This document shows, piece by piece, positions 7,722 to 64,000 of a stretch of 64,000 bases of DNA. The DNA is taken from the NCBI RefSeq assembly GCF_013141915.1, contig NZ_SROX01000017.1, forward strand, positions 62,001 to 126,000, in the 5' to 3' direction. The notes beneath the pieces were generated by a model. The model saw only the letters and a program-made list of their open reading frames with translations, was not told where the DNA came from and made no database searches. The stretch is from Cupriavidus necator (lineage in GTDB: Bacteria; Pseudomonadota; Gammaproteobacteria; Burkholderiales; Burkholderiaceae). Position numbers and translations under genes: made by a program. Each line of letters starts with the position of its first letter. Position 1 is the first letter of the stretch.

Positions 7722-8145
7722 ACACCACCTCGGCACGCTTGACGAAGGCATCGACAAAGGTATTGGCGATCATGCTGAAGACCGGGCCAATGAGCTTTTC
7801 CAGCAGCAGGCTGGAAAACTCATAGTGCAGGTGGAACTCGATCTTGCAGGCGTCTTCGCGCAGCGGCGTAAAGCGCCATGAGCCGTTGAACGTCTTGAAC
7901 GGCCCGTCGGCAAAGGTCATGTCGATACGCGTGGGACGCTCCTGGGTATTGCGCGTATGGAAGAACTGCTGGATGCCCTTGAAGTGGATATGGATCTTGG
8001 CGTCGAGCATGGTCTCGGTCTGCTCGAACACCTCCACCCCGCCGCACCATGGCAGGAACTTGGGATAGTCCTCCACGCGGGTGACCAGGTCGTACATCTG
8101 CGCGGCGGAGTAACCGAGCAGGACGGATTTATGGACGTCTGCCAT
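7708..8145 (-). CDS. ratA: RatA / COQ10-like START-domain protein
   Basis: About 145 aa from MADVHKSVLL; the frame also allows an upstream ATG at 8172. The sequence YDLVTRVEDYPKFLPWCGG and the C-terminal AFVKRAEVVYG are diagnostic of the polyketide-cyclase/COQ10 lipid-binding family. Members bind ubiquinone or its precursors, and the E. coli homologue RatA was described as affecting 70S ribosome association. Neighbouring smpB and rnfH reproduce the arrangement known from other proteobacteria. I see nothing in the sequence that separates the ubiquinone role from the ribosome role. Confidence 0.88.
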   Translation of the reverse strand: MADVHKSVLLGYSAAQMYDLVTRVEDYPKFLPWCGGVEVFEQTETMLDAKIHIHFKGIQQFFHTRNTQERPTRIDMTFADGPFKTFNGSWRFTPLREDACKIEFHLHYEFSSLLLEKLIGPVFSMIANTFVDAFVKRAEVVYGTS

Positions 8146-8218
8146 GAATGGGGAAATCTGGCTTGCGGCCATGCCGCGCTCGGTGCGCGGCAGGCATGCG
8201 CCTGTGCCGGGGCTGGTT

Positions 8219-8227
8219 TGCTAGAAT
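8219..8227 (+). promoter_or_regulatory. Putative extended -10 promoter of smpB
   Basis: TG-C-TAGAAT is an extended -10 motif about 97 bases before the smpB ATG. No good -35 is present, which fits extended -10 promoters. The ratA start lies on the other side, so the interval is a divergent promoter region. Confidence 0.45.
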
Positions 8228-8323
8228 CCCGATTTTAGCCGACACGCGCGTTCCGCGGCATCCCGCCATGCGGCGCTGCAGCGAACCGGCCAGAATCCAC
8301 CCTACCGCACCCTACCCGCACGC

Positions 8324-8776
8324 ATGACCATTGCAGATAACAAGAAGGCCTTCTTCGACTATTTCATCGAGGAACGATACGAGGCCGGGATCGTGCTGGA
8401 AGGCTGGGAGGTCAAGGCGATCCGCGCCGGGCGGGTACAGATCAAGGAAGGCTACGTGGTGGTGCGCGACGCCGAGATGTTCCTGATCGGCGCCCATATC
8501 AGCCCGCTGCAAAGCGCCTCCACCCACGTCACGCCCGATCCGGTACGCACGCGCAAGCTGCTGCTCAAGGCCGACGAAATCAAGAAGCTGATCGGCAAGG
8601 TCGAACAGCGCGGCTACACGCTGGTGCCGCTGAACCTGCATTACACGCGCGGCCGCGTGAAATGCGAAATCGGCCTGGCCAAGGGCAAGAAGCAGTTCGA
8701 CAAGCGTGAGACCGAAAAGCAGCGCGACTGGCAGCGCGAGAAGGCCCGCATCATGAAGGGCGACACCAAGGGCTAA
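8324..8776 (+). CDS. smpB: SsrA (tmRNA)-binding protein SmpB
   Basis: 150 aa, the standard length. It binds tmRNA and brings it to stalled ribosomes for trans-translation. Family blocks are [25 protein letters not shown] near the N-terminus, the central INPLQSAST-like block, and the basic C-terminal tail [19 protein letters not shown] that follows the mRNA path on the ribosome. No strong Shine-Dalgarno sequence is seen before the ATG. The tmRNA gene itself is not in this window. Confidence 0.97.
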
Positions 8777-8800
8777 ACCTCCGGCCGCCGCCCTGCCGCA

Positions 8801-9730
8801 TCAAGCAGCCTTCTGCCCCTTCACGATCTGCAGCGCAGAAGCGATCATGCTGCTCATGTCGCCCATATTGCCCGGCACGATCAGCGTATTGCCCTGCTTG
8901 GCCAGGTTGCCGAACGCGGCCACGTACTCCTCGGCCACCTTCAGGTTGACCGCATCCATGCCGCCTTCGGTGCGGATCGCGTTGCCGATCTTCTGGATCG
9001 CCTGCGCATTGGCCTCGGCCACCGCCAGGATCGCGCTGGCTTCGCCCTGGGCCTTGTTGATGGCCGCCTGGCGCTCGCCCTCAGACTTCTGGATCGCCGC
9101 CTCGCGCGCGCCGGTGGCCAGGTTGATCTGCTCCTGGCGCTTGCCCTCGGAAGCCGCGATCAGCGCGCGCTTCTCGCGCTCGGCGGTGATCTGCGCCTGC
9201 ATCGCATGCAGGATTTCCTTGGGCGGGGTCAAGTCCTTGATCTCATAGCGCAGCACCTTCACGCCCCAGTTGGCGGCGGCCTCGTCCAGCGCATTGACCA
9301 CGCTGTGGTTGATGAACTCGCGCTCCTCGAAGGTCTTGTCCAGTTCGAGCTTGCCGATCACCGAACGCAGCGTGGTCTGCGACAGCTGCGTGATCGCCAC
9401 CACGAAATTGCTGGAACCGTACGACGCCTTCATCGGGTCGGTCACCTGGAAGTACAGCACGCCATCCACCTGCAGCTGCGTATTGTCCTTGGTAATGCAG
9501 ACCTGGCTGGGCACGTCCAGCGGGATTTCCTTGAGCACGTGCTTGTAGGCGACGCGATCGACGAACGGCACCACGATCGACAACCCGGGCGTCAGGGTGG
9601 CGTGATAGCGGCCCAGGCGCTCCAGCACCCAGGCATGCTGCTGCGGCACGATCTTGATGCCCTTGGCAATCAGCACGATAACGGCAATAAGGATGATCAG
9701 CGGCAACAGACCAAGCTGAAAAGCGAGCAT
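8801..9730 (-). CDS. SPFH/stomatin-like (QmcA/paraslipin type) membrane protein
   Basis: About 309 aa. One N-terminal transmembrane helix (residues 6-24) is followed by an SPFH domain (about 28-190, with VPQQHAWVLERLGRYH and PGLSIVVPFVDRV). A long Ala/Glu/Gln-rich coiled coil follows (about 175-255), then a C-terminal region with NTLIVPGNMG. This is the stomatin/slipin subclass rather than HflK/HflC. It probably oligomerises in the inner membrane. The ATG at 9730 follows a GGAG at 9 bases and gives a clean membrane anchor. The partner NfeD is encoded just upstream, the usual stomatin operon arrangement. Confidence 0.92.
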   Translation of the reverse strand: MLAFQLGLLPLIILIAVIVLIAKGIKIVPQQHAWVLERLGRYHATLTPGLSIVVPFVDRVAYKHVLKEIPLDVPSQVCITKDNTQLQVDGVLYFQVTDPMKASYGSSNFVVAITQLSQTTLRSVIGKLELDKTFEEREFINHSVVNALDEAAANWGVKVLRYEIKDLTPPKEILHAMQAQITAEREKRALIAASEGKRQEQINLATGAREAAIQKSEGERQAAINKAQGEASAILAVAEANAQAIQKIGNAIRTEGGMDAVNLKVAEEYVAAFGNLAKQGNTLIVPGNMGDMSSMIASALQIVKGQKAA

Positions 9731-9850
9731 GTAACGATTCTCCAGGCAGAACACATCGGTACGGCGCCGCCGGGCGGCGGCAGGCGGAACACACCGCGGC
9801 CGCAGCCGCGAGGCGCAAGAAGACGGGCAAGACCGGGCTGCAGCGGCGCT

Positions 9851-10285
9851 TCAGCGAGGCAATACCACCAGCGTGCTGCCGCGCACCGCGACGATGCGGT
9901 AGCGGCCCGGCGCCAGGGCGCGGTCAGGGGGGCAATCGGGCGCCAGCTCGACGGTCCAGTCCGCGCCGCGGTACGGCACGCGCGCGCGCCGGTTGGCGTC
10001 CCACGCGGGCACGTCGAGCTCCTCGCCGATATCGAGGTTGACGTTGGGATCGGCCGCGGCATTGCCGCGCCGCAGCTTGCCGAAGCGGGTGCGGCGCAGC
10101 CCGGCGATCAGCACCGTCGCGACCAGCGCCCCGATCAGTGCCTGCGCCGCCGGCGATGCACCGAGCAAGGCCGCCACCCCGGCGGCGGCGAAGCCCACCG
10201 CCACCATCAGCAGATAGAACGTGCCGGTGTTCAGTTCGACGATCACCAGCACCACCGCTGCCACGAACCAGATGTAATACGCCAT
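9851..10285 (-). CDS. NfeD-family membrane protein
   Basis: About 144 aa, a short NfeD protein. The N-terminal half has three to four hydrophobic helices (WFVAAVVLVIVELNTGTFYLLM and following). The C-terminal half forms the OB-fold soluble domain (about 80-144) with the closing RIVAVRGSTLVVLPR. Proteins of this class pair with SPFH proteins, and the SPFH gene lies 120 bases downstream on the same strand. The start at MAYYIWF (10285) is preferred; the upstream open codons are intergenic. Confidence 0.9.
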   Translation of the reverse strand: MAYYIWFVAAVVLVIVELNTGTFYLLMVAVGFAAAGVAALLGASPAAQALIGALVATVLIAGLRRTRFGKLRRGNAAADPNVNLDIGEELDVPAWDANRRARVPYRGADWTVELAPDCPPDRALAPGRYRIVAVRGSTLVVLPR

Positions 10286-25087: not shown

Positions 25088-25909
25088 TCAGAGAAAAATC
25101 AGCATCAGGGCGGCCAGCGGGAATACCGGCAGCAAGGCGTCGATGCGGTCCAGCACGCCACCGTGGCCAGGCAGCAGGCGGCTGCTGTCCTTCTTGCCGA
25201 CCTGGCGCTTGAGCAGGGATTCGAACAGGTCGCCGACCACGCTCGCCGCGACCAGCAGCGTGGTCAGCGCCGCGACGAAGCCGAGGCCGCCGCGGTCGCC
25301 CATCGCGGAAAACCAGGTCGGGGCAAAGGCGTGGGTGGCGGCCAGCGCGAGGCCGATCGCCAGCGCCAGCACCCAGCCGCCAATGGCGCCCTCCCAGGAC
25401 TTGCCCGGGCTGATCCCGGGCGCCAGCTTGCGCCGGCCGATCGCCTTGCCGGTGAAATACGCGCCGATATCGGCGGCCCATACCAGCACGGCGGCGGTCA
25501 GCAGCACGCCGATGCCGGCGCCGCGCAGGATCATGGTGGCATGGGCAAACGCGGGCAGCATCACCAGCCCCAGCACCACGCCCAGCGCCGTGAAGGCCGG
25601 GGTGGCGGTGCGCACGCCGCGCGCCAGCAGCATCACCGCCACGCCCCAGCACACTACCGCGGCCTCCAGCAGCCAAGTCGTGGCGTGGCGCAGCGGCAGG
25701 TCATGCCAGGCGATGGTGGCGATCAGGCAGGCCAGCGCATAGACATAGGGCCACGGCCCGCGCAGTCCGATCAGGCGGCCGAATTCCCAGCCGGCCAGCA
25801 GCACGATCACGCCGAGCAGTCCCGCCAGGCCCGCCGGCGGCGCCAGGAACAGGATCGGCAGGATCAGCAGCAACAGGCACAGGGCGGTGATGACGCGGGT
25901 GAGGAGCAT
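25088..25909 (-). CDS. cdsA: Phosphatidate cytidylyltransferase (housekeeping CdsA)
   Basis: Makes CDP-diacylglycerol from phosphatidate and CTP in the inner membrane. It is 273 aa with about eight hydrophobic helices. The CDP-DAG synthase signature lies in the C-terminal part: [31 protein letters not shown] and [15 protein letters not shown]. It lies between uppS and dxr. A second, divergent CdsA homologue is encoded at 60168-61130. Confidence 0.97.
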
Positions 25910-59028: not shown

Positions 59029-59255
59029 CGCTTTGTCTCCTATCCTGGGTCCCTTCTGTAGTGCCCGCCGCAGGTTCCACTGCCGTGCGTTGCGCGAGGG
59101 ATGCCACGCAGTCTAGGCCAGCGTCCGCGCCGGCGCGATTCCCGCGCGGCGCGAACCGAGTCCTGCCGGGCATGGCGCCGCGCCAAGACCCGCGTGCCCG
59201 GCGCGCGCGGTGCGCGGCGCTACAATGGCCTGCACCACCCAGCGCCGCCACGCCC

Positions 59256-60167: not shown

Positions 60168-61130
60168 TCAGGGCACCCACCAGTAGCGCGTGACATGGAA
60201 GAACACCGGCGCGGCGAACACCACCGAGTCAAGCCGGTCGAGCATGCCGCCGTGGCCCTGGATCATGTGGCCCCAGTCCTTGATGCCGCGGTCGCGCTTG
60301 ATCGCCGACATCACCAGCCCGCCAAGGAAGCCCATCAGCGCGATCACCAGCGCGATCGCGCCGGCCTGCCATGGCGAGAACGGCGTGATCCACCACAGCG
60401 CCGCGCCCAGCGCGGTGGCGCTGGCGACGCCGCCGACAAAACCCTCGACGGTTTTCGACGGCGACAGCAGCGGCGCGATCTTGCGCTTGCCGCACAGCTT
60501 GCCCCACACGTACTGCAGCACGTCGCTGCCCTGCACCACGATCACCAGGAACGCGATCAGCAGCAGGTTGCGCCCGTCGAAGCCCGGGATCGGCAGCGTC
60601 AGCAGCGCCGGCACGTGCGAGATGCAGAACACGCACACCATCACCGCCCACTGCACCCCGGCGCAACGCTCGAGGAAGCGCGTGGTCTCGGCCGACAGCG
60701 CCGCCAGGATCGGCAGGATCAGGAAGGCGTAGACCGGGATCAGGATCGAGAACATGCCGTACCAGCCGATATAGACCAGCACGTACTGCAGCGGCAGGAA
60801 CACGAAGAACGCGGCGACGATGGCGCGATGGTCGCCGCGTCGCGTGGTGGTGATGGTGACGAACTCGCGCAGCGCGAAGAACGACAGCAGGTAGAACAGC
60901 ACGATCACCGCGGTGCGCCCCAGCGCGAAGGCGGCGCCCATGATGCCGATCATCCACCACCAGGCCCACACGCGCTGCCCCAGGTTGTCGATTACCGCGT
61001 GCCGGCCGCCGCCCGCCACGCGCCAGCGTAGCAGCGCGGTCACGGTCGAGGCCAGCAGCAGCACGCCGAACAGGCCGCCAAACAGCAGCCAGGTCTCGCG
61101 GCTCCAATGCAGGGTGGGCATGGCGTTCAT
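60168..61130 (-). CDS. Second phosphatidate cytidylyltransferase (CdsA homologue)
   Basis: 320 aa with about eight to nine hydrophobic helices and the CDP-DAG synthase signature SPSKTVEGFVGGV and SAIKRDRGIKDWGHMIQGHGGMLDRLDS near the end. It is longer at the N-terminus and clearly different from the housekeeping CdsA at 25088. The ATG at 61130 overlaps the plsC-like stop by four bases (ATGA). It should make CDP-diacylglycerol for the lipid pathway of this cluster. The extension of the frame beyond 61130 is a shadow. Confidence 0.93.
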   Translation of the reverse strand: MNAMPTLHWSRETWLLFGGLFGVLLLASTVTALLRWRVAGGGRHAVIDNLGQRVWAWWWMIGIMGAAFALGRTAVIVLFYLLSFFALREFVTITTTRRGDHRAIVAAFFVFLPLQYVLVYIGWYGMFSILIPVYAFLILPILAALSAETTRFLERCAGVQWAVMVCVFCISHVPALLTLPIPGFDGRNLLLIAFLVIVVQGSDVLQYVWGKLCGKRKIAPLLSPSKTVEGFVGGVASATALGAALWWITPFSPWQAGAIALVIALMGFLGGLVMSAIKRDRGIKDWGHMIQGHGGMLDRLDSVVFAAPVFFHVTRYWWVP

Positions 61131-61753
61131 TCCAGTTCCGGGGCAAGCGCGAGCAGGCCGTCGCGGCAGCGCGCAAGGAACGCTTCCTTGCTGTCGTCGT
61201 CTGCCAGCCGCAGGGGCTGGCCGAAGGTCACAGTGCACAGCAGCGGCACCGGCACCACTTCGCCCTTGGGCATCACGCGGTTCAGGTTGTCGATCCACAC
61301 TGGCACGAATTCGACCTGCGGGCAGGCCCGCGCCAGATGGTAGATGCCGCTCTTGAGCGGCAGCAGGCGCGCGTCGGTGGTGTTGCGCGTGCCTTCGGGA
61401 AACAGGATCAGCGAGTCGCCCGCCGCCAGGCCGGCCCGCATCAGCGCGATCGGGTCGCTGCCCGGGTCGCTGCGGGTGCGGTCGATCAACAGCGCGCGGA
61501 ACACGTCGCGGCCGATAAAGCGCCGCAGCGGCGATGTCTCCCAGTAATCGGCGCCGGCCACCGGCCGCGTGACCGTGCGCAGGTCGGGCGGCAGGCAGCC
61601 CCAGATCAACACGAAATCGCCATGGCTGCTGTGGTTGGCAAAGTAGACGCGCTGCACCGCGGCCGGGATGCAGCCCTGCCAGTTGGCGCGCATGCCGGTC
61701 AGCAGCCGGGCGAAGACGATAATCGCGCGTGCGGTGGCACGGGCAAGCCACAT
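61127..61753 (-). CDS. PlsC-type 1-acyl-glycerol-3-phosphate acyltransferase
   Basis: 208 aa. The acyltransferase motifs are present: NHSSHGD (H-x4-D), the IGRDVFR block, and FPEGTRNTTD, followed by the VEFVPVWIDNLNR region. An N-terminal amphipathic helix probably binds the membrane. It produces phosphatidate, the substrate of the CdsA homologue translated directly after it. It is shorter than housekeeping PlsC proteins, so it is probably a paralogue. Confidence 0.92.
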   Translation of the reverse strand: MWLARATARAIIVFARLLTGMRANWQGCIPAAVQRVYFANHSSHGDFVLIWGCLPPDLRTVTRPVAGADYWETSPLRRFIGRDVFRALLIDRTRSDPGSDPIALMRAGLAAGDSLILFPEGTRNTTDARLLPLKSGIYHLARACPQVEFVPVWIDNLNRVMPKGEVVPVPLLCTVTFGQPLRLADDDSKEAFLARCRDGLLALAPELE

Positions 61754-61759
61754 GGTTGT

Positions 61760-62203
61760 TTACCTCAGGATCAGGGTCAGCAAGGCCAGCGCCAGCTGGC
61801 ACACGGTCAGCGCGGCGCTCGCGCGCACCAGCCGCAGCGCGCCGCGGGCGCGTTCGGACAGCGGGCGTGCGGCGCGCGCGGCGGGCATCCAGCCCAGTTC
61901 AAGCAACGCGCCATCGAGCCCGGCCAGGTCGGGCTGGGCCGGCACGCCGCCGGCAAGCGCGCCGAACAGGCGGCGGTCGATCGCGACACGCAACAGCAGC
62001 CAGAGCTGGGGCAGCGCCAGCAGCAGGGCCAGCGCCGCCGGCCAGCGCGAGATTGCGGTGCCCGCGCCCAGCCACGCCGCCAGCATGGCGAACGCCAGTC
62101 CCGCCGCGCCTACCCACGCGGCACCCGCGAGCGCCCCCGTCACCGCGTGAGCGATCCAGTTGTCGGTGCGGTGCGACAACGCTGCGTCGTGGTCAGCGGC
62201 CAT
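61760..62203 (-). CDS. Small membrane protein of the lipid cluster
   Basis: 147 aa, no family recognised. Two hydrophobic segments near the N-terminus (about 17-46 and 53-76) and one at the extreme C-terminus (about 127-147) flank a polar part with GLDGALLELGWMP. It starts at MAADHDA (62203), overlapping the phosphatase stop by 11 bases, and ends 6 bases before plsC. Its place inside a fully coupled lipid operon suggests a subunit or partner role. Confidence 0.8.
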   Translation of the reverse strand: MAADHDAALSHRTDNWIAHAVTGALAGAAWVGAAGLAFAMLAAWLGAGTAISRWPAALALLLALPQLWLLLRVAIDRRLFGALAGGVPAQPDLAGLDGALLELGWMPAARAARPLSERARGALRLVRASAALTVCQLALALLTLILR

Positions 62204-63569
62204 CGCCAGGCTCCTGCGTGGCCGCACGGTCCAGCCAGCGCTGCAGCGCGTCGGCATGTTCACGGCCCAGCACCACGGCGGGCCGATGCCGGCGCAGCAC
62301 CGCCAGCGCGGCGCCGGCGTCGCGCAGGCCTTGCTGTCGTGCCAGCCACGCTGCCGCCACCAGCGCGCTGCGCGAATAGCCCAGCGCGCAGCTGACCAGC
62401 ACGCGGCGCCCCTGCCGCTGCCAGGTGTCGAGTTGCGTCACGGCTTGTTCGAGCTGCTGCGGCGTAGGCACGGTCAGGTCCAGCACCGGCACGCAGCGAT
62501 ATGCCAGGCCCGGCCCGCTGGCCGCGCGCGGCAGCTCGGCGCTGAGGTCAAGCACCGCATCCGCGCCGAGCGCGCGCAGCTCGGCCCGCGTCGGGAAGCG
62601 GCCCACCCAGAGGTCCGGCGCGATCGCGCTGGCCTGCGGCGCGCGCCGCGTCCACCAGCGCGAATTGAGGAAGGCCCCCAGCAGGTAAGGCGCCAGCACC
62701 CAACGTGCGCCCGGCGCCATGGCGCCGTCGCCGTCCTTCTGGAACCACGCCGGCGCGGCCAGCGCGTAGATGCGGGCCACGCAGGCCAGCGCCAGCGCGG
62801 CCCACAGCAGCAGGAAGGCCAGCGTCACCGCCCCGCCCACCGCCAGCACCGCGCACAGCAGCGCCACCAGCGCACCCACGCCGTAGCGGCGCGCCAGCTG
62901 GCGCGTGCGTGCATCCGGCACACCCGCCGCGGCCACAGGCAGCCGCATCGGCAACAGGTAAACGCACAGCCAGCCCACCAGCGCGCCGGTGGGCACGTCG
63001 ATCAGGTGATGCTGCCAGGTGGTCAGCACCGAGATCCCGATCAGCGCAAACCAGCCGTGCAGCATCCAGCGCCAGCCGCCGCGCAGATGCGCGGCAAAGG
63101 CGACCCACAGGATCACCAGCAGGCTGATATGCAGCGACGGTGCCTGGTTGAACGGCAGGTCGAAGCCGCCCAGCAGCGTGAACAGCCGGCCCGGCAGGCC
63201 GTCGGCATCGGGCCGCGCAAAGCTGAAGCGCAGCGGGAAGGCGATAAAGCACGCCACCGACACCAGTTGCGCCAGCACCAGCCGCTTGACATGCGTGATC
63301 AGCGCCGCGCGGCTGCGCCACAGGAAGAACGAGATGCCGTACAGCAGGTCGATCGACCAGTACGGCACGATGGTCCAGGGCAGGAACGGAATGCCCCGCT
63401 CCCATTCGAAGTAGAACGACGGCACGTCGGCGCGCTGGCTTGCCAGCCAGTTGGCCAGGCCATAGCTGGAGAAGAAGAACGCGCCGGCCAGCGCCAGCAG
63501 CACGCAGGCCAGGCCCCACGGCCGCTGCGACTGCGCACCGGCCTCGGCCAGCGTCGGCACCGTGCTCAT
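62193..63569 (-). CDS. PAP2-like / dual-specificity phosphatase fusion
   Basis: 458 aa with two phosphatase modules. The N-terminal two-thirds is a six- to eight-helix membrane part with PAP2-type motifs NQAPSLHIS and TTWQHHLIDVPTGA, the catalytic His sites of lipid phosphate phosphatases. The C-terminal domain (about 320-458) has the Cys-x5-Arg loop VSCALGYSRSA of dual-specificity (tyrosine-type) phosphatases, with Ser in place of the usual His before Cys. It starts at MSTVPTLAEAG (63569), coupled as ATGA to the methyltransferase. It may dephosphorylate lipid head groups such as phosphatidylglycerol- or inositol-phosphates. Confidence 0.9.
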   Translation of the reverse strand: MSTVPTLAEAGAQSQRPWGLACVLLALAGAFFFSSYGLANWLASQRADVPSFYFEWERGIPFLPWTIVPYWSIDLLYGISFFLWRSRAALITHVKRLVLAQLVSVACFIAFPLRFSFARPDADGLPGRLFTLLGGFDLPFNQAPSLHISLLVILWVAFAAHLRGGWRWMLHGWFALIGISVLTTWQHHLIDVPTGALVGWLCVYLLPMRLPVAAAGVPDARTRQLARRYGVGALVALLCAVLAVGGAVTLAFLLLWAALALACVARIYALAAPAWFQKDGDGAMAPGARWVLAPYLLGAFLNSRWWTRRAPQASAIAPDLWVGRFPTRAELRALGADAVLDLSAELPRAASGPGLAYRCVPVLDLTVPTPQQLEQAVTQLDTWQRQGRRVLVSCALGYSRSALVAAAWLARQQGLRDAGAALAVLRRHRPAVVLGREHADALQRWLDRAATQEPGDGR

Positions 63570-64000
63570 GCGCCGCGCCTGCGCGCCAGGCTGACGGTGA
63601 AGATGCCCCACGGGTCGATGCGCTGCGTCACCTTGTCGAAGCCCGCGGCCCGCACCAGTTCATCCATCTCGGCCTGCGAACGTCGGCGCATCACCCACGC
63701 CGCGCCGGCGCGGTGGCTGGTCAGCGCGCGCGCGATAAACTCCAGCTGCGGATGCCAGGGCTGGCCGGTGTAGACCAGGTAGCCGCCCGGCGGCACCGCG
63801 CGCGCCAGGCCCTCGAGCGAGCGGCGCACCATGGCGTTGTCGGGGAACAGTTCGTACAGGCCGGACACCACTGCCAGCGTCGGTGCCGGCGCCAGCGCGG
63901 CCAGGCTGGCGCCGTCGAAGGCATCGCCCTGCTCGAAGCGGGCCACGCCCTGCAGGCCCTTGGCGGCGATCAGCGCGCGCCCCTGCTCCACGTTCAGCGC
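63566..64000 (-). CDS. SAM-dependent methyltransferase, 5' end outside the window
   Basis: The last 144 residues of a larger protein; the frame is open at base 64000 and the internal GTG at 63991 is not a convincing start. Visible are the second half of a class I fold: FEQGDAFDG, the PTLAVVSGLYELFPDN strand and GGYLVYTGQPWHPQLE, and a C-terminal RRRSQAEMDELVRAAGF block. In related operons this gene is often a hydrolase-methyltransferase fusion; that cannot be checked here. It is the first visible gene of the coupled lipid cluster. Confidence 0.85.
   Translation of the reverse strand, partial: ALNVEQGRALIAAKGLQGVARFEQGDAFDGASLAALAPAPTLAVVSGLYELFPDNAMVRRSLEGLARAVPPGGYLVYTGQPWHPQLEFIARALTSHRAGAAWVMRRRSQAEMDELVRAAGFDKVTQRIDPWGIFTVSLARRRGA

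Follow-up and report, generated by a model that had tools for sequence, protein, structure and literature searches.

An Arc1/Ynb-type gene cluster in Cupriavidus necator, with an active-site signature that hints at an undescribed membrane lipid

Background

Which product is made by the run of phospholipid-type genes at the end of a 64,000-nucleotide stretch of Cupriavidus necator DNA (NCBI RefSeq assembly GCF_013141915.1, contig NZ_SROX01000017.1, positions 62,001 to 126,000 of the forward strand; hereafter the window)? The original prediction, made from the sequence of the window, saw five tightly packed minus-strand genes and proposed for them a dedicated lipid pathway. Here the genes are named A to F in transcript order, in an apparent six-gene operon on the minus strand; five of them reach into the window, which ends at position 64000 within the second (B); the larger part of B, and the first gene (A), were read from the same contig beyond it. 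In this order they encode a CDP-alcohol phosphatidyltransferase, a hydrolase/methyltransferase, a fusion of PAP2 with a dual-specificity phosphatase (DSP), a membrane protein of 147 amino acids, a PlsC-type acyltransferase and a CdsA-like protein. We find that the cluster is already known and named, as Arc1, and chemically unsolved, and that the Cupriavidus copy is a further member. On balance, we think it probable that the window holds the last five genes of the Arc1 (PA2541-36)/Ynb orthologue of Cupriavidus, where a variant A supplied by E and F makes a dedicated phospholipid, which is then tailored. Moreover, the unusual active-site signature of A hints at a membrane lipid so far undescribed.

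In Pseudomonas aeruginosa, PA2541-36 is known as arc1A-F, one of three Gac/Rsm-controlled clusters which defend the cell against attack by the type VI secretion system (T6SS) of Burkholderia thailandensis, and five of its six genes look phospholipid-related to its authors (eLife 2022, PMC8926400). Arc1-3 are named again as Gac/Rsm targets (PMC11888443), and PA2541 is listed among the genes with a known RsmA site (PMC4066749) as well as among the genes with single-nucleotide polymorphisms in a phage-resistant strain (PMC9603957).

Identity of the cluster

The Arc1 gene names were tied to sequence through the deletion-primer segments printed in PMC8926400, of which five of eight matched exactly and three had no match. 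One segment matched a single genome of the 25 in its genus, a P. aeruginosa-group genome (G440), which may be a close relative of P. aeruginosa and not that species, given the three unmatched segments. There, exact matches are found for three of the four PA2541 segments, one at each end of gene A and one about 1 kb further along, in B, and for two of the four PA2536 segments, one at the E/F junction and the other some 0.8 kb before this junction. The locus at these primer sites reads A-B-C-D-E-F, that is, six homologous genes in the same order and on the same strand as the Cupriavidus cluster, with protein identities of 56, 68, 54, 40 (over 86 amino acids), 57 and 69% for A to F, respectively.

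A second relative is found in Escherichia coli K-12, whose ynbA, ynbB, ynbC and ynbD genes correspond by homology to A, F, B and C, respectively (A 45% and B 61% identical); all four Ynb homologues stand together in the Cupriavidus cluster. Our searches of the open-access literature on YnbA-D, PA2536-41, Arc1 and the CDP-alcohol motif found no paper joining ynb to arc1, and ynbA is not mentioned in the main text of PMC8926400. The original prediction had named as a ground for refutation that a cluster of the same composition is already assigned to a known pathway; in part this is so, since Arc1 (PA2541-36) is in print with a role, its product being not assigned.

Distribution and gene order

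We then present an overall view of the cluster in a phylum sample of 398 genomes and in 508 relatives, the best 80 of which were kept as named loci. Among these best 80 of 508, the order A-B-C-D-E-F is kept in 64, which shows that the arrangement is not due to chance; the original prediction had proposed such a comparison across relatives. Ten others (Burkholderia, Trinickia and Paraburkholderia) carry E-F in divergent orientation ahead of A-B-C-D, five are truncated by contig ends, and one (L092) has D without C. Likewise, 35 of 43 loci chosen by B or D matches, with the own cluster and E. coli included, have all six genes in order, the exceptions being L003, L021 (a short locus), L045, L046, L050, L051, L052 and L066. 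Within the genus, a search with the D of the window finds it in 15 of the 23 other genomes, so the cluster is patchy there.

In the phylum sample, PF12147, the family of gene B, is found in 27 of the 398 genomes, and the profile of D matches 25, all within these 27; the first scan of each genome considered up to 9 candidates for D, up to 7 for A and up to 5 for B, so that an absence in these counts is no proof. Gene A is found at E <= 1e-15 in 42 genomes, namely all 27 with B and 15 without it. Among the 15 A loci without B, A-E-F are adjacent in 12 and A stands beside F in 13, one of the 13 with shortened A and F frames. A-E-F thus acts as a core cassette, which also stands alone, and to which B and the pair C-D are added.

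C and D also go together. For this comparison and for the conserved residues below, we collected 124 loci by B or D matches or by primer search and took one best hit per locus. Both C and D are present in 115 loci, C alone in six (four cut by contig ends, plus L003 and L045), D alone in one, and neither in two (L051 and L052, at the cluster); in other words, D goes with a PAP2-DSP C in 115 of the 116 loci having D. In one of the two genomes without C or D at the cluster (G241), a C-D pair is located about 43 kb from A-B-E-F, still together.

Several single loci deserve to be recorded. In Burkholderia latens (L092), D directly follows B with no C at the locus, the sole case of D without C. By eye, the frame following C in L045 resembles D. 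In L049, a 720-codon open frame (7999-10158, +) lies between B and C, in this one genome. In a Cupriavidus genome (L062, 6522-7810, +), gene C is split over two reading frames, the copy being apparently broken or misread.

In addition, the T6SS protein VipB is present in 19 of the 27 PF12147-positive genomes versus 69 of the 371 others (Fisher p 3e-8, ignoring kinship and genome size and including the own genome), a suggestive association of T6SS with the cluster.

Active-site signature of gene A

Gene A lies just past the window, beyond the gene that the window cuts, which the extension beyond 64000 completes as the fusion B. All 21 members match PF01066 at E <= 1, the protein of this cluster with 22.9 bits (cut-off 22). 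The best PDB match of the A profile is 6h53, the phosphatidylinositol-phosphate synthase PgsA1 of Mycobacterium tuberculosis, aligned over 8-195 with E 2e-9. In that enzyme D68, D71, D89 and D93 hold two metals, in the motif D1xxD2GxxAR...GxxxD3xxxD4, and D4 is followed by K or R throughout the published alignment (PMC6506517).

Rows with less than 25 bits or less than 70% coverage were left out, leaving 122 for A, 123 for B, 118 for C, 115 for D, 117 for E and 118 for F. Several genomes occur twice in the row set, which draws on two collections, and counts at 85% non-redundancy (46 sequences for A, 61 for C) are therefore fairer. Instead of the four Asp of PgsA1, the metal-ligand positions of A read Asn-Asp-Asn-Asp in 122 of 122 rows and in 46 of 46 non-redundant ones, so the four-Asp motif is absent. 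In the less biased search of A over the 398 genomes, which overlaps with the row set, the signature is found in all 30 loci returned and in 14 of the 15 without B, the exception (L199) having Ala at D1. The three other family members of the C. necator genome have Asp at all four positions. After D4, where the published alignment has K or R, A has V, I, M or L in all 122 rows. The Asn at D1 and D3 and the hydrophobic residue after D4 suggest to us that the metal site is altered and that the acceptor is not inositol-phosphate. We found no paper describing the Asn signature in the open-access literature searched.

The NCBIfam models are of interest for the question whether A is simply a second phosphatidylglycerophosphate (PGP) synthase. 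The best model for A is archaetidylinositol-phosphate synthase (E 7.9e-17, 61.7 bits, well under its cut-off of 180), while no PgsA model reaches E <= 0.01 for the A of this cluster; for E. coli YnbA a PgsA model is found, but it is weaker (3.2e-7).

A distant form of A was seen in five loci (L207-L211), with Asn at D1 and D3 and with the Arg of the 'AR' pair lost (N-L-[LF]-DGMVA-[IVM]-E type). The genomes have no PF12147 match, and four of the five loci are A-E-F cassettes, A standing alone in L208.

The PAP2-DSP fusion and the other genes

Gene C is indeed a fusion of PAP2 and DSP, as the original prediction had read it, with DSPc recognized by Pfam and PAP2 below the Pfam cut-off; the five window proteins together give a partial Methyltransf_20, DSPc, PAP2 (under its cut-off), Acyltransferase and CTP_transf_1. 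The DSP half matches dual-specificity phosphatases of the PDB by sequence and in its predicted fold, with PTPMT1 among the tied best (3rgq, Z 18.1, 143 residues, 2.0 A). PTPMT1 is a PGP phosphatase. D364, C394 and R400 are present in 117 of 118 rows, the remaining row having a gap, so the predicted Cys-x5-Arg is borne out, and the half qualifies under the DSPc profile; D364 we take, by its position, to be the general acid of the DSP.

The PAP2 half is less ordinary. Each of the 30 trimmed members matches both PAP2 and PAP2_3 at E <= 1, with the window protein under both Pfam cut-offs, and PAP2_C matches five of the 30, weakly. H147, H187 and D191 are kept in 118 of 118 rows. The C3 motif of PAP2 phosphatases carries SR (SR-x5-H-x3-D), and the Arg position of C is Val in 116 of 118 rows, Ile in one and Thr in one. 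The rest of the phosphatase consensus, K-x6-RP for C1 and SGH for C2 (PMC5798408), is departed from as well: the C1 Lys position is Pro112 in 118 of 118 rows, the C1 Arg position holds R, K, H or Q and is followed by Pro in all 118 rows, and C2 is SLH in 117 and SMH in one. Therefore the term 'membrane phosphatase', used in the original prediction, is insecure for the PAP2 half, while the dedicated lipid pathway proposed with it is supported in general. Since sphingomyelin synthases are also without C1 (PMC5798408), head-group transfer by this half is possible, by analogy. The sequence profile of the PAP2 half finds at best PLPP1/PLPP2, with E 0.012 or worse; in fold searches with the whole of C, dual-specificity phosphatases filled the lists of matches. 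The active site of PAP2 proteins usually faces outward. Based on this, on the helix ends of the AlphaFold2 model and on an excess of K+R in alternate loops, the PAP2 site is predicted to be periplasmic and the DSP cytosolic.

The partner of C by gene order, D, is the unassigned three-segment protein of 147 amino acids of the original prediction. The AlphaFold2 model (pLDDT 94.1) consists of three long helices plus a short fourth, and there is no credible Pfam match: no family is common to more than two of 46 members at E <= 1, the best single match being DUF4118 (4e-4, one of 46). Searches of the PDB by sequence gave no relative of D, and Foldseek no match at E <= 0.001; the best fold match by VIA-align has Z 10.2 with a root-mean-square deviation of 3.1 over 129 residues, where the tool advises about 13 for helical bundles. 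The conserved charges are at one end of the long helices, and the loops holding them have no clear K+R excess. The suggestion that D could be a missing transferase is rejected, as the transferase-family gene is A, just upstream of the window, D has no enzyme-family match, and no D is located beside E. coli ynb.

In gene B, the hydrolase half is nearest to monoacylglycerol lipases, with a weak resemblance to lysophospholipase L2, and Ser117, Asp232 and His262, by motif presumably the catalytic candidates, are kept in 123 of 123 rows. In E, HX4D is kept in 116 of 117 rows (one row being unread there) and PEGTR in 117 of 117. F keeps its family motifs and was rightly called a second CdsA, since the genome has two PF01148 proteins; the other one, at about 25097-25900 (-) of the window, is presumably the housekeeping copy. 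For the E. coli homologue of F, it is reported that overproduced YnbB raises MPIase and cannot replace CdsA (PMC6362211; review PMC7018664), and that deletion of ynbB does not significantly change MPIase (PMC6362211).

Features of the locus

The features are listed in Table 1. All five predicted window genes are found at their places. The original prediction described all junctions as ATGA overlaps or gaps of at most 6 bases; this is right for B/C (a shared ATGA of 4 bp, 63566-63569), E/F (a shared ATGA, 61127-61130) and D-E (a 6-bp gap, 61754-61759), and wrong for C/D, which overlap by 11 bp (62193-62203) without an ATGA.

Table 1. Features of the A-F cluster (window positions; aa, amino acids)
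Feature	Position	Strand	Details
Gene F, CdsA-like CTP_transf_1 (E. coli YnbB type)	60168..61130	-	320 aa; Pfam PF01148 E 1.5e-67; position of PA2536; last gene of apparent operon
Gene E, PlsC-type acyltransferase	61127..61753	-	208 aa; Pfam PF01553 E 1.7e-14; HX4D and PEGTR kept
Gene D, membrane protein, three long helices, without family	61760..62203	-	147 aa; conserved R72, D76, F80, D97, R113, R118
Gene C, PAP2-DSP fusion (E. coli YnbD type)	62193..63569	-	458 aa; Pfam; AlphaFold2 pLDDT 91.2; conserved residues
PAP2 domain of C, residues 97-206	62952..63281	-	Pro112 at C1 Lys position (placed by spacing); C2 PSLH147; C3 S180-V181-x5-H187-x3-D191
DSP domain of C, residues 329-445	62235..62585	-	Pfam DSPc E 9.1e-15; Cys394-x5-Arg400; predicted cytosolic
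Gene B, C-terminal 144 aa in window	63566..64000	-	589-aa alpha/beta hydrolase + Methyltransf_20 (E. coli YnbC type); whole B = 63566-65335
Gene A, CDP-alcohol phosphatidyltransferase family (YnbA type)	65340-65966, beyond window	-	208 aa; 4 bp upstream of B

ARAGORN calls two tRNA-Ala genes, at 62305-62389 (-) and 59163-59244 (-) of the window; the first, located entirely within gene C, is likely a false positive in the GC-rich coding sequence. PADLOC on the cluster genes gives only weak methyltransferase matches to B (mad2 4e-6, MTase_II 0.005).

Proposed pathway and alternatives

As expected from their families, E would acylate a lysophosphatidate-type lipid, F would turn phosphatidate into CDP-diacylglycerol, and A, a variant CDP-alcohol phosphatidyltransferase, would use the CDP-diacylglycerol from F to attach a head group, probably not inositol-phosphate. 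Because A would attach its own head group with CDP-diacylglycerol made through E and F, A-E-F may be dedicated to supplying a single special phospholipid. B and the cytosolic DSP of C could then trim or methylate the product or dephosphorylate its head group, the PAP2 half could act on the product, or hand the head group on, at the periplasmic face, and D might work together with C. The Pseudomonas cluster has been shown to be induced on danger and to give protection from T6SS attack; by analogy the Cupriavidus copy may play the same role. An inositol lipid fed by a local inositol-1-phosphate synthase was rejected as the likely product, since PF01658 (inositol-phosphate synthase) has no match in the Cupriavidus genome and the residue after D4 is hydrophobic.

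Several observations weigh against a dedicated phospholipid made in this way. A product, substrate or activity of A, B, C, D or E was found in no search made. A keeps only two of the four metal-ligand Asp, and may therefore be a slow or altered transferase, or none. Where A-E-F cassettes occur without C, no dedicated phosphatase lies next to them, which makes it less likely that the DSP finishes the product of A. The genes do not always go together either: in L199 and L208 both E and F are missing from the surroundings of A, L200 lacks E and has just short frames for A and F, E. coli ynb consists of A, F, B and C with neither D nor E next to them, and L092 has D without C. In L209, counted as without B, the B profile finds a partial match of 82 bits further along. 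The effect of overproduced YnbB on MPIase, together with its failure to replace CdsA, points F toward a different lipid. Finally, loss of Arc1 left the survival of P. aeruginosa under heat, peroxide, salt and detergent unchanged (PMC8926400), which does not suggest a large membrane change.

Among the alternatives, the one that survives best is a plain top-up of phosphatidylglycerol (PG) under membrane attack, where A would be a second PGP synthase and C a PGP phosphatase. The authors of Arc1 report that four of its genes have significant homology to PG-synthesis enzymes (PMC8926400), and the match of the DSP of C to PTPMT1, among others, fits as well; however, the Asn at D1 and D3 of A, set against three canonical family members in the same genome, and the preference of A for the archaetidylinositol-phosphate synthase model over any PgsA model speak against a second PGP synthase, and B and D are left unexplained, so we consider this unlikely. 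Lysophospholipid repair, in which B would hydrolyse damaged lipid and E reacylate it so that membranes are restored after phospholipase toxins, draws on the lipase-like half of B and the PlsC-like E, and one Arc1 gene is above the threefold cut-off for defence against Tle3 (PMC8926400). Yet one Arc1 gene is also above the cut-off for ColA, a pore former, and the defect of Arc1-less strains is relieved by none of the single-toxin mutations of the attacker, unlike that of Arc3 with Tle3 (PMC8926400); besides, repair would require neither A nor F, although A-E-F is the part that stands alone, and we regard it as quite improbable. Least probable of all is a route to the glycolipid MPIase or a similar GlcNAc-PP-diacylglycerol, with F as a backup enzyme and its neighbours supporting it, which is published for YnbB (PMC6362211, PMC7018664) but has against it the ynbB deletion without significant change in MPIase (PMC6362211) and leaves unexplained the methyltransferase, the DSP, the Gac/Rsm control, and A, though A so often stands beside F without B.

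We thus favour a dedicated phospholipid, made by A with its E-F supply. A bolder form of this proposal, which we offer tentatively and with some doubt, is that A represents a new class of CDP-alcohol phosphatidyltransferases, with two of the four Asp fixed as Asn and mostly with its own E and F, making an undescribed phospholipid, possibly in E. coli K-12 too, which is tailored by B and C-D on both faces of the inner membrane and acts as a lipid shield against bacterial attack.

What is new here is the Asn signature of A, the stand-alone A-E-F cassette, the link of D to C, and the PAP2 departures with the two-face prediction. Arc1 is a named defence cluster with no product in the literature found, and in E. 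coli, the bacterium studied best, ynbA-D is for the most part uncharacterised. If Arc1 and ynb are treated as one system, the question can be pursued in E. coli K-12. The Asn-Asp-Asn-Asp signature, the A-E-F cassette and the C-D pairing thereby give three testable predictions on a lipid that no found paper describes.

Comparison with known systems

With Arc1, the Cupriavidus cluster shares all six genes and their order; the difference is that the Pseudomonas copy is the one known to be under Gac/Rsm control and shown to defend against T6SS attack. E. coli ynb differs in its order, A-F-B-C, and in lacking D and E beside it. How such a gene set can work is shown by BT_1522-1526 of Bacteroides thetaiotaomicron, where a CDP-alcohol transferase, a phosphatase and an AUR1-like synthase are also located in one cluster, together with a membrane protein that could be lost without any change in the inositol lipids (PMC9246714). 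Unlike the Cupriavidus cluster, with its Asn-substituted A and no PF01658 match in the genome, this system has the canonical motif DX2DGX2AR...GX3DX3D in BT_1523 and its own inositol-phosphate synthase (PMC9246714).

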